From a virus, in IMG/VR virus record IMGVR_UViG_3300042467_003293, positions 1 to 25,539 of that record: 25,539 nt of DNA; one strand, written 5' to 3'. The notes under the pieces were generated by a model. It had not been told where the DNA came from, made no database searches, and saw nothing but the letters and a program-made list of their open reading frames with translations. How positions within the stretch are numbered: the stretch's first letter is position 1; every line of letters begins with the position of its first letter. The position numbers and the translations under genes are program-made. Below, piece by piece: positions 22,203-25,493 of this stretch.

Positions 22203-22721
22203 ATGTTTTCGTTCTTTATGCCCACGCCCATTGAATTTGTCTTCTCCGAAGAGGAAAGAAAGCATGCAATGGAGGAGGGATACAGGCGACAATCGGTCAA
22301 TGAGGCGAAAGGGCTTCGTGGTCGAAACAAGGGTGCTGCTCGTGGCGACAAAGCTCTTGAAATTCACTTACTTGGCGCAGCAGGGGAAATGGCCGTGGCC
22401 ACCTTGCTGGGTCTTAAGCATGAGCTCTACAAGGAGAGCGAAGCTCGACGCGGGTCAGACGATCTGCCAGGTATCGACGTGAAAACGCGATCAAAGCACT
22501 CATACGACCTCATAGTCCAAAAAAACGAAGATCCGCGCAAGAAGTTTGTTCTCGTGACCATCGAAAATCAAAAAACCTTCATCCATGGCTGGTGCTGGGG
22601 GGAAGAGGCGATGGAGGAACGGTTTTGGGCTGATCCGGCCCGGGGGCGGCCTGCCTACTTTGTCCCCAAAGAATTTCTTCGTCCAATGAGCACCCTGAAG
22701 CCCCATGCTTTCGTGCAGTGA
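22203..22721 (+). CDS. PD-(D/E)XK-like nuclease beside TerL
   Basis: A protein of about 172 residues from ATG 22203 (an in-frame ATG at 22218 is possible). LGAAGEMAVATLLGL (Glu62), then LPGIDVKTRS (Asp92, Lys94), fits the PD-(D/E)XK nuclease core: helix with Glu, then D...xK. The C-terminal part (HGWCWGEEAM, RPAYFVPKEFLRPM) is well ordered. It overlaps TerL by 17 bases and is the first gene of the plus-strand packaging unit, in the slot where a small terminase is expected. It may assist DNA cutting or act as an independent endonuclease. The catalytic call is from motifs only. Confidence 0.6.
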   Translation: MFSFFMPTPIEFVFSEEERKHAMEEGYRRQSVNEAKGLRGRNKGAARGDKALEIHLLGAAGEMAVATLLGLKHELYKESEARRGSDDLPGIDVKTRSKHSYDLIVQKNEDPRKKFVLVTIENQKTFIHGWCWGEEAMEERFWADPARGRPAYFVPKEFLRPMSTLKPHAFVQ

Positions 22722-24078
22722 TTTTGCGAAGCACGTTCTAAAGCTAGAACTTTGGCCTGAGCAAAAAAGAATCCTCGATGCTTATTTTGGTGGCAACAAG
22801 ACCCATGCTGTATGGGCGCTTGGTAGACGGTGCGGCAAGACGCTCATGGCCTCGATCGCTGCACTCTATGCATGTTTTGTCCTGGAAGAGCATTACAGGC
22901 GTCGCGTAAGGAAGTCCGAAAAATGGTACATCTTGACCATCGCCAACGACCAGAGCCAGGCCAAACTAGCCCTTAATAACATTCGGCAGTTGCTGATGGA
23001 CAGTCCCTTAGTGAATGAGATCACTAGGGAAACTGCCACTGAAATTGAGACCAGTAACAACTGCGTGTTTCAGGCAATTCCAGCATCCGCCCGAGCCTCT
23101 CGAGGCAAGGCAGTGGTGATGCTGATCATGGACGAACTTAGCTTCGCGATTGAAGGTGATGCAAACCGAGGGGCCAAGGCAATTTACGATGCCCTCTCCC
23201 CGTCCATTGCTCAGTTTGGTCAGCATGGTCGCATCCTTGAGCTTTCCTCTCCTTGGCTCACGGATGGCCTCTTCTACCAGCATTACTGCGAGGCCAAGTC
23301 TGGAGAGTTCCCCTTTATGCAGGCAGTAAATCTCCCAACATGGGAGGTCAATGTCAACTTGCCGTGGGGATGCCCATTTCTTGATGCTGAACTCAAAAGA
23401 GATCCCGACAAATTCTGGGTGGAGTATGGCGCTCAGTTTGCCAAGAACAATACAGCCCTGCTTGCAACTGAAATCATAGATGCAGCAATCAACAAAGAGA
23501 GGAGTGTGCTTTTTCCAGAAAAGGAATTTACTGGCACCTATGTTCTTTCTCTTGACCCGGCTAGGGGCGGCGTTGGAAGGGATGATTACACGGCTTGTAT
23601 TGTTCATTATGAAGGCACAAGGCTAGTTGTGGACAAGTTTCACGCCTTTGAACCTGACTTTGAAATTGGCGGCAAAAAAGAAGTGAATATGGCAAAAGTG
23701 GAGGAATGGATTAAGGAGCATCATCGTATTTACGAGTTTCAAAGTATTGTCCTTGACCAGTTCAATAGCAGCTTCATCATTCAAAATCTCTCCAAGGATT
23801 TCCCCATTGCAGAGCTTGCTTGGTCTGTTAGCACAAAGATGAAAGCCTTCAGCAAGATGAAAGAGCTTTTTAACGCTGGCCTGATTGAGCTCTATCCGCA
23901 TCAAAAAGCAATCACTCAGTTAAAAAATCTCAGCGTCATTTATAGGGCAAGCGGACAATGGGCGGTGACTGGAGGCAAGGAAGTGGGAGTTGACGACTAT
24001 GCATTTGCGCTAGCTGCGGCTATTTTGGAGGCATCAAAAGATAACGACATTGACTGGTTAAACAGTCTCGTGCGATAA
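22705..24078 (+). CDS. Terminase large subunit
   Basis: A 457-residue packaging motor. The ATPase domain has Walker A GRRCGKT (residues 40-46), Walker B VVMLIMDE with Asp143 and Glu144, and the coupling motif ELSSPW near 179-184. The RNase H-like nuclease has its acidic residues at Asp284 (LSLDPARGG), Asp351 (IVLDQFNSS) and Asp430/431 (GVDDYAFALA). The length is normal. It pumps DNA through the portal and cuts the concatemer. ATG 22705 overlaps the nuclease gene. It is transcribed divergently from all other head genes. Confidence 0.95.
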   Translation: MLSCSDFAKHVLKLELWPEQKRILDAYFGGNKTHAVWALGRRCGKTLMASIAALYACFVLEEHYRRRVRKSEKWYILTIANDQSQAKLALNNIRQLLMDSPLVNEITRETATEIETSNNCVFQAIPASARASRGKAVVMLIMDELSFAIEGDANRGAKAIYDALSPSIAQFGQHGRILELSSPWLTDGLFYQHYCEAKSGEFPFMQAVNLPTWEVNVNLPWGCPFLDAELKRDPDKFWVEYGAQFAKNNTALLATEIIDAAINKERSVLFPEKEFTGTYVLSLDPARGGVGRDDYTACIVHYEGTRLVVDKFHAFEPDFEIGGKKEVNMAKVEEWIKEHHRIYEFQSIVLDQFNSSFIIQNLSKDFPIAELAWSVSTKMKAFSKMKELFNAGLIELYPHQKAITQLKNLSVIYRASGQWAVTGGKEVGVDDYAFALAAAILEASKDNDIDWLNSLVR

Positions 24079-24142
24079 CCGCCTGTAGAATTTTCACTAT
24101 TATTCCTTTTTCCACTTTGCTGAAAATTGGCTGGCAGTGAAA

Positions 24143-24319
24143 ATGACAAACATTGACCTATCGTTTGAAGAGCTTTCTTTCCTTTGCGCTCTTTTAACGG
24201 CAGACAGGCAAACTGCCCTCCAATTACTTGCCGCTGAGCATGCGTATCGTCCTTCATTGCTTCCCAAGTTAGAAGATGCGCATAAAGAGCTAAAGCGCAA
24301 GAAGATGGGACAGCAGTAA
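24143..24319 (+). CDS. Small helical hypothetical protein
   Basis: A 58-residue protein (ATG 24143, or GTG two codons upstream) following TerL by 64 bases. It is almost entirely helical (FEELSFLCALLTADRQTALQ) with a Lys-rich C-terminus. No family is recognised. The reading frame is supported by plausible composition and by the same strand and spacing as its neighbours. Confidence 0.5.
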   Translation: MTNIDLSFEELSFLCALLTADRQTALQLLAAEHAYRPSLLPKLEDAHKELKRKKMGQQ

Positions 24320-24340: not shown

Positions 24341-24577
24341 ATGGTTCTCTCCGCTGCTGCCGAAGACGCCCTTGCCTGGGCGATGAAAGCGGCCGAGGCC
24401 GTGGAAGAGGCGGGCAAGAATTTTGGCCCTCTCAGTGAAGAAAGCCGCTTGGCAAAAGCCGCTTACGAACACCTTCTGGAAGATTATCGTTCGCTCGCTG
24501 GCAACGAAAGCGATTATTGGCAGAAGCGCTGCAAAGACTGTCCCGATTGCGCTGGCTGCAAGGACTACGACGCCTAG
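24341..24577 (+). CDS. Small protein with C-terminal cysteine cluster
   Basis: A 78-residue protein from ATG 24341. The N-terminal two thirds is an Ala/Glu-rich helix (DALAWAMKAAEAVEEAGKNF), and the end carries four Cys in CKDCPDCAGC, spaced two apart, a likely metal site. A GGAG lies 14 bases upstream, rather far. The gene is followed after two bases by another small frame. Family and role are unknown. Confidence 0.55.
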   Translation: MVLSAAAEDALAWAMKAAEAVEEAGKNFGPLSEESRLAKAAYEHLLEDYRSLAGNESDYWQKRCKDCPDCAGCKDYDA

Positions 24578-24579
24578 CC

Positions 24580-24708
24580 ATGGTCTGCTTGTGCTACAGC
24601 CTCCATGGCAAGAGGCATGAGCTCAGGGTGCCATTTCATGAGGCTCGTTACGCCAATAGAAGGCTGTTCGCGGAAGGGGCTGCCGTCTACTGGAGCTTCT
24701 TTTGTTAG
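24580..24708 (+). CDS. Very small hypothetical protein (42 residues)
   Basis: An ATG two bases after the preceding stop opens a 42-codon frame with sensible composition (HELRVPFHEARYANRRLF, ending AAVYWSFFC). The position suggests translational coupling to the Cys-cluster gene. Short length makes it uncertain. Its last bases overlap the -35 region of the putative RNA promoter. Confidence 0.4.
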   Translation: MVCLCYSLHGKRHELRVPFHEARYANRRLFAEGAAVYWSFFC

Positions 24709-24732
24709 CAAGTCCTGAAATAGTGCTATGCT
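24705..24732 (+). promoter_or_regulatory. Putative promoter of the structured RNA
   Basis: TTAGCA, 16 bases, then TATGCT with an extended -10 (TGC before it). Transcription would begin near 24738-24740, exactly where the first long-range helix of the predicted RNA starts. The match to consensus is moderate. Confidence 0.45.
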
Positions 24733-25282
24733 TCTGAGGCTTTCTGCAGAAGCCCGTTGGCCAACGGTTTACCCAGCATGCTCGTCCATGCTGGCTTCGT
24801 TTGTGGATTCCGTGATCGAGCGAGTTGAAGCGCTAGGTCTCTTCCTGCAGGGTGTTGGAGCCGCACTCCATTGATTCCCTAATGCGGGAACACTCTGCTT
24901 TCACCTCAATCTTTTCGCTTTGATAGACTGACAAGACGTTTGCCCTTTACGGGGTGCATGAAAGCCATCCAGGAAACGGGGGATGGGGACCATGGAGAAA
25001 CGCCCGTGAACAAGCTCATGCTTGTGAAGCTACAGCTCCTGAAAGCCGCGAGGCTTCATCAGGCGCAGTTGGCTTCAATCTACGGCTACCGCCCTTGTTT
25101 AGCCTGAAGACTACACCCAGCCGCTCTTGTCAATCTGACAGGGGCGATATTTTTGTCCGCGATAGACAAGCCAGCGAGAGGGCAAGTGCAGCAGATTCCA
25201 CCAGTCCGAAAAAGCCTGGTGCTCTTCTTCAGCCCAATAGGGAACACCTCGATACACGAGCAAGGTCATGGCTAAACAAGCG
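24730..25282 (+). ncRNA. Large ornate structured RNA (GOLLD/ROOL-like or new class)
   Basis: About 550 bases without a convincing gene but full of nested helices. The 5' domain is closed by 24738-24748 with 24955-24966 (11 bp, one bulge). Inside are hairpins at 24754-24767 and 24773-24794, helix 24825-24832 with 24916-24923, and helix 24847-24856 with 24889-24898 enclosing two hairpins as a three-way junction. An H-type pseudoknot follows (24965-25007), then a hairpin at 25010-25025 and a 20-bp hairpin with a GCGA tetraloop at 25026-25076. The 3' domain is closed by a perfect 11-bp helix (25094-25104 with 25270-25280) around hairpins at 25122-25146, 25152-25170, 25199-25221 and 25248-25260. 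Several pairs are G-U on this strand only, favouring a plus-strand RNA. Size and style recall GOLLD and ROOL phage RNAs; class membership is unproved. Confidence 0.75.
25026..25076 (+). other. 20-bp RNA hairpin with GNRA tetraloop
   Basis: GAAGC, bulge TA, CAGCT, CCTGA, AAGCC, loop GCGA, GGCTT, bulge CA, TCAGG, bulge CGC, AGTTG, GCTTC. All 20 pairs form, with one G-U. This is the strongest single helix of the structured RNA and is typical of tertiary-contact arms. Confidence 0.8.
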
Positions 25283-25295
25283 ATGCCCCTTTAAT

Positions 25296-25493
25296 CTATC
25301 TTCCCTCTTGTTTATGAATGTAAGTTTTTAGTTCGTGGAGATACTGTCGCAACATTTCCGCTTTCTCTAAGTGCCAAGGGTCATGATGGAGGAAGTAAAG
25401 CTCCATGTGGGCATCAATAGCTTTTAAGCAGTTATGAATGGGCGCGTTCCAGCGCGAGCGAACTGGCGTGTTAAACGTCCGACGCTCGTCCAT
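25296..25493 (-). CDS. Small helical hypothetical protein
   Basis: A 65-residue protein, MDERRTFNTPVRSRW at the start, then two helices around LKAIDAHMELYFLHHDPW and LEKAEMLRQYLHELKTYIH. The composition is strongly protein-like, and I believe similar small proteins occur in cyanophages, but no function is known. ATG 25493 overlaps the end of the upstream gene by about 23 bases. It converges on the structured RNA. Confidence 0.65.
   Translation of the reverse strand: MDERRTFNTPVRSRWNAPIHNCLKAIDAHMELYFLHHDPWHLEKAEMLRQYLHELKTYIHKQEGR

Follow-up and report, generated by a model that had tools for sequence, protein, structure and literature searches.

Background

Several structured RNAs of phages have been described in detail. 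GOLLD and ROOL RNAs are found in phages close to tRNA islands and form oligomers through kissing loops, and many GOLLD members are longer than 800 nt (PMC12286853). A much smaller example is the abiF RNA, which has been proven to act as an RNA antitoxin against the AbiF toxin (PMC12373285). In cyanobacteria, a type of glutamine-II riboswitch reported to be restricted to marine picocyanobacteria controls DUF4278 proteins that resemble the N-terminus of IF17, the glutamine synthetase inactivating factor (PMC6316151). A small peptide gene behind the Downstream-peptide riboswitch has been described for the RF01704 family (PMC2864571, PMC6316151), and glutamine riboswitches have been reported from phages earlier (PMC9004378; PMC9964418).

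Here we analyse a stretch 3' of the packaging genes of a cyanophage, which contains a structured RNA next to a riboswitch of this type. No family of Rfam 15 matches the RNA at gathering score, and no description was found in the open-licence full-text literature, an earlier account elsewhere being possible. It represents an RNA family absent from Rfam that occurs in phages of picocyanobacteria.

Results

Genomic context of the RNA

The window, i.e. the whole 25.5-kb viral record that was analysed, contains a tape measure gene and the genes for a portal, a head maturation protease and the terminase large subunit (TerL). Since the closest cultured relative of this terminase belongs to Synechococcus phage S-CBS4 (62% identity; host CB0101), we regard the window as part of an S-CBS4-like cyanophage. 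With the window region as query, blastn against known phages gave no match, and S-CBS4 was reached via TerL. The extent of the conserved unit was judged from 80 terminase relatives.

In a large group of S-CBS4-like cyanosiphoviruses the position of the RNA is constant: it is separated from the terminase large subunit gene by two to three small genes, with the packaging genes on its 5' side and a block of convergent genes on its 3' side, and each phage genome contains one copy. The neighbouring genes are also conserved in all 20 checked contigs that were found by the RNA pattern, the terminase not being used in their selection. A prophage source was rejected, since TerL is absent from genome_contigs, and the sole match of the RNA pattern in a bacterial genome (L226) lies inside a coding sequence and was discarded as a chance hit. 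The features of the locus are compiled in Table 1.

Table 1. Position of the RNA, its structural elements and the neighbouring features (window coordinates unless a relative is named)
Feature	Position	Strand	Evidence or remark
Terminase large subunit	22705-24078		
Three small genes 3' of terminase	24137-24319, 24341-24577, 24580-24708	+	conserved in relatives
Small upstream gene, 42 aa, last before the RNA	24580..24708	+	tblastn relatives in 143 loci
Extended -10 box TGCTATGCT	24724..24732	+	predicted RNA start about 6 nt downstream, at first hairpin
Structured noncoding RNA, 166 nt	24738..24903	+	iterated nhmmer, non-triplet indels, covariation
Hairpin A, GGCUUUCUGCAGAAGCC, self-complementary	24738..24754	+	apex UGCA, or GGCC in some relatives
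Hairpin B, CCGUUGGCCAACGG, perfect palindrome	24754..24767	+	
Hairpin C, loop GCUCGUCC (consensus CCUCGUCA)	24773..24794	+	covariation
Conserved linker GGAUUCCGU	24805..24813	+	alignments
Hairpin D, UUGAAG loop	24814..24839	+	covariation
Domain E, three-way junction of outer helix and two hairpins	24847..24898	+	covariation, model R1
Hairpin E1, CCGCA loop at 24861-24865	24856..24870	+	loop invariant except CCGAA in L113
Hairpin E2, UAAUGC loop at 24880-24885	24875..24890	+	pairs to E1 loop
Glutamine-II (Downstream-peptide) riboswitch, separate element	24934..24988	+	RF01704, slightly below gathering score
33-aa peptide gene, GTG start, behind riboswitch	25006..25107	+	34 tblastn hits
Intrinsic terminator of the + transcript	25122..25156	+	stem 25122-25146, then AUAUUUUUG
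52-aa DUF4278-like gene, convergent	25111..25269	-	24 tblastn hits
Conserved 65-aa gene closing the slot	25296..25493	-	162 tblastn hits
abiF RNA in relatives	L010:8547-8583, L057:9088-9124, L011:10120-10156, L067:9514-9550, L078:3801-3837	-	

Extent and nature of the conserved unit

An earlier note on this DNA had proposed a structured RNA of about 550 nt. A single RNA of this length is ruled out, since many of the terminase relatives keep 24724-24898 and lack 24940-25270, and since the latter region holds coding genes. The proposal remains valid for 24738-24903, whereas 24934-25282 consists of a riboswitch, two small coding genes and a terminator. Iterated nhmmer searches yielded 67 matches to the conserved unit in the 81 sequences searched, its length reaching up to about 250 nt in relatives. 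The alignments show non-triplet indels as well as stems that are wholly altered in sequence yet still paired, and the unit is therefore considered noncoding and structured. We are practically certain that 24738-24903 is a genuine structured RNA of the plus strand. It is separable from the riboswitch and the peptide gene on its 3' side: L057 possesses the RNA with neither the riboswitch nor a following tRNA, and in L078 the riboswitch is present and a full-length match to the RNA was not found.

The excess in folding energy, which had been suggested as a check, turned out to be weak for the whole reported stretch (z -2.3 on the plus and -1.6 on the minus strand) and amounts to z -1.55 for the refined RNA and -1.4 to -3.8 for its relatives. 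Since folding energy by itself is weak, the proof of structure is the covariation. The wobble pairs favour the plus strand, with eight G-U pairs in the three-way junction and one position of hairpin C that, among 11 distinct sequences, is U-G in six and C-G in five. The earlier argument from G-U pairs thus holds for the junction and for hairpin C, whereas the hairpin at 25122-25146 with its three G-U pairs is an intrinsic terminator.

Architecture and covariation

RNAalifold recovered only 18 pairs from the whole gappy alignment, and covariation was computed on domain-wise gapless alignments instead. Double changes were found in four of the seven pairs of hairpin C and in six of the seven pairs of hairpin D (covariation 0.816 vs 0.291 shuffled). 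In the gapless 26-sequence alignment of domain E, 15 of 18 pairs exhibit double changes and 98.5% of the cells are paired, with a covariation score of 0.677 compared to 0.263 for shuffled alignments and at most 0.142 for slid structures. As the aligned sequences are related, the counts from shuffling cannot be read as probabilities. The slid controls, in which relatedness is kept, offer the stronger comparison, though biased toward a structure read off the same sequences.

Because of this bias, an independent test was run with a covariance model (R1) trained without the junction type of the window. R1 hits 24841-24902 of the window (37.4 bits, E 1.7e-7) and, with filters off, places the homologous slot of S-CBS4 at the top of that phage (21.4 bits, E 2e-4). 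With default filters the RNA of S-CBS4 was missed, also across the whole record, so that the records without a match in the default-filter search include a phage in which the RNA is found with filters off. Further loci of the S-CBS4 clade have the same junction and the same loops with wholly different stems. A blastn search of phages with the S-CBS4 slot gave, beyond S-CBS4 itself, short matches, which fall on its tRNA-Thr among the matches listed.

The two 5' hairpins are self-complementary. Among the relatives, hairpin B occurs as seven different perfect palindromes with the apex GGCC or GCGC, and in the S-CBS4 clade GCAU-UCGCG-AUGC is found in place of hairpin A. The 3' part also exists in other versions. 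In one subclade (L058:3690-3860, L065, L044, L099, L110, L116, L129) hairpins A and B are retained along with the GGGAUUCCGU linker, but the 3' domain has been rebuilt: a UUGAAG-loop hairpin stands where E2 would be, and the loop of E1 reads CCAA or CCGA; this is a modular shuffling of the same RNA parts. In the L033 clade (L028-L037, L111) a hairpin with a GGUGGAAG-like loop stands in place of hairpin C, which looks as if hairpin D had been duplicated.

The alignments further point to a loop-loop (pseudoknot) contact between E1 and E2 that locks the 3' three-way junction. Its two pairs, G24863-C24885 and C24864-G24884, are present in all 14 sequences compared. When the loops were left free in a generic scan, the genuine domain-E sequences were seen to combine E1 CCGCA with E2 U(A/G)NNGC, with the single exception of L113, where CCGAA faces UUCGG and both partners are altered together from C-G to A-U. 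This covariation amounts to a single independent event and concerns one of the two pairs; the second is invariant and uninformative. The earlier suggestion of a plus-strand RNA with a three-way junction and a pseudoknot is thus backed by the compensatory changes in domain E and in hairpins D and C and by the double change in the facing loops.

Promoter-like box

A promoter-like element had been noticed just before the first helix, and its arrangement recurs in the relatives: in some 50 distinct loci, drawn from both clades, a hairpin follows TAnnnT after 4-7 nt. From this spacing, transcription would start at the first hairpin. The box reads TGCTATGCT, TGCTAAGCT or CTATAGT, with TATAGT in the S-CBS4 clade, and T6, G7, T9, A10 and T14 are invariant in the alignment. 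The conservation of the box is partly due to coding, since in part of the loci its TGnTAA also ends the upstream gene, with a Cys codon and the stop. A promoter scan of the window found no -35/-10 pair.

Adjacent tRNA genes and abiF RNA

RNase P cleaves tRNAs at their 5' end. Of 46 distinct copies, 25 are followed by a tRNA (17 Leu-UAA, 8 Thr-UGU) that begins 2-7 nt 3' of the outer helix, and in these copies RNase P would release the RNA. The other 21 copies, including that of the window, have no tRNA within 60 nt, so maturation by RNase P is not general. Neither ARAGORN nor Rfam detected a tRNA or tmRNA in the window.

Five relatives carry an abiF RNA (RF03085) on the minus strand (49-56 bits, gathering score 37), which in L010, L057 and L011 ends 4-5 nt before tRNA-Ile(GAT). 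Near the copy in L057 no ORF of the size of an AbiF toxin stands out. As the abiF RNA is a known antitoxin, these copies may be orphan counter-defence RNAs.

Riboswitch, peptide gene and convergent gene

The RF01704 element of the window scores 31.7 bits (E 6.8e-6), the gathering score being 33, and syntenic elements in 14 relatives reach 34-48 bits. The short ORF directly 3' of it encodes a conserved peptide and is probably controlled by the riboswitch. The same order, a glutamine-II riboswitch before a peptide gene of 33-50 aa, was observed in L111:2030-2230, L153, L166 and L190, and in other clades the peptide has a YRGV motif like DUF4278 (read by eye). The convergent 52-aa gene overlaps the terminator of the peptide transcript and its product has two YRG motifs; its match to PF14105 (E 0.0058) is below the cut-off.

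The view that the stretch lacks a credible protein gene was not confirmed, given that the 33-aa peptide of the plus strand and the 52-aa protein of the minus strand are both conserved. Conserved coding within 24954-25331 had been named as evidence against an RNA, and these two genes account for part of that interval. The long GNRA hairpin (about 25037-25075) was rejected as an RNA element, as only close relatives conserve it; it lies inside the peptide gene.

Discussion

Taken together, the RNA at 24738-24903 appears to be a stand-alone noncoding RNA of the phage with its own promoter, which acts in trans and perhaps serves as a protein decoy; as a whole, we consider this explanation reasonably probable. 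According to it, the RNA would be transcribed from its own promoter with the 5' end at the first hairpin, which would protect it against 5'-dependent decay. In copies followed by a tRNA, cleavage by RNase P would release the RNA with 2-7 nt left behind the last helix. In the others, transcription may read through to the terminator, or a U-rich tail of the RNA itself may form its end. Once matured, the RNA would act in trans; most likely, its constant loops would be offered to a host protein in the manner of an antitoxin-like decoy. That the RNA stands alone, is matured and acts in trans is quite probable, as it occurs in L057 without riboswitch or tRNA and as a tRNA would sever it from the mRNA. 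The role of a decoy in counter-defence is a more tentative guess by analogy with the abiF RNA (PMC12373285), which relatives carry before tRNA-Ile, and against it speaks that no toxin or defence system with a sequence link to the RNA was found. It would be bolder still, and is rather improbable, to see here a new class of counter-defence RNAs that is freed by phage tRNA processing and mimics the RNA partner of a picocyanobacterial toxin or RNA-guided defence. If true, such an RNA would work alongside the abiF antitoxin RNA of the same phage group.

Other explanations have to be weighed against a decoy. The palindromic 5' hairpins would suit an RNA-only homo-oligomer in the style of GOLLD and ROOL, in which kissing contacts between different molecules, made by the apices of hairpins A and B, would build up a dimer or larger scaffold late in infection. 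The seven versions of hairpin B, whose apex swaps between GGCC and GCGC in step, agree with this, and the apex of hairpin A (UGCA or GGCC, UCGCG in the S-CBS4 clade) suits kissing as well, without being proof of it; the two known RNAs likewise lie near tRNA islands and assemble through kissing loops (PMC12286853). However, a palindromic apex arises in any fully paired dyad, a DNA operator included, and the present RNA is only about 165 nt long and shows no homology to GOLLD or ROOL, so that we judge an oligomer unlikely. The palindromes A and B directly downstream of a promoter could also belong to a DNA-level element such as operators, an origin or a pac site. This is hardly credible, since the wobble pairs obey the rules of a plus-strand RNA, and a three-way junction and loop-loop covariation make no sense in duplex DNA.

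The position of the RNA on the same strand and directly upstream of the tRNA, the riboswitch and the peptide gene would be in line with a cis-acting leader that regulates this transcript via termination or processing, and a T-rich tract, a second terminator-like site, lies 3' of hairpin C. In the window, the RNA could simply be the leader of the riboswitch mRNA. In contrast, the RNA of L057 is followed by neither tRNA nor riboswitch, in L078 the riboswitch is present and no full-length copy of the RNA was found, and excision of the tRNA would sever the RNA from the mRNA in 25 of 46 copies; on balance, a cis-acting role in general seems rather doubtful. The fixed place behind the terminase large subunit gene further raises the question of a packaging RNA that works with the nearby terminase or portal. 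The pRNA of phage phi29 also uses loop-loop contacts, a feature common to both RNAs. Yet there is no Rfam match of any kind, the terminase and portal match common phage families and not the phi29 type, and the element sits after a separate promoter-like box. A role in packaging is therefore very unlikely, and the stand-alone RNA acting in trans is the reading that we prefer.

Irrespective of its function, the structured RNA is new to Rfam and occurs in S-CBS4-like phages of ecologically important picocyanobacteria, and S-CBS4 on Synechococcus CB0101 is a cultured phage-host pair that carries it. The tRNA-coupled layout suggests a general route by which phages may mature small RNAs, and bears on the question why GOLLD and ROOL also adjoin tRNAs. 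The riboswitch with its small DUF4278-related gene points to a control of host glutamine synthetase by the phage, by extension from the cyanobacterial case (PMC6316151), and the phage may operate a switch on the nitrogen metabolism of its host.

In comparison with the known systems, the glutamine-II riboswitch RF01704 shares a transcript with the RNA and is yet separate, since the latter occurs with and without it. The abiF RNA is, like the RNA described here, a structured phage RNA located just before a tRNA, in its case on the opposite strand, but it comprises 37 nt and differs in fold and sequence. The phi29 pRNA resembles the RNA described here in adjoining packaging genes, but comes from another phage type, and the Rfam pRNA model gave no match. 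The locus had also been compared to the large GOLLD and ROOL RNAs, as a member or as a new class. The covariance models of GOLLD and ROOL gave no match at gathering score and none at E up to 10, so that membership is dismissed, and the idea of a structured RNA that is perhaps a new class holds for the first 165 nt. At 166 nt in the window, and no more than about 250 nt in relatives, the RNA has about a quarter of the size of GOLLD and ROOL, its own promoter-like box and a different architecture. It shares with them that it is a phage-borne structured RNA beside tRNA genes with loop-loop contacts, and with GOLLD that the 3' part is better conserved while the 5' part is variable. The resemblance to GOLLD and ROOL that remains is thus one of context.
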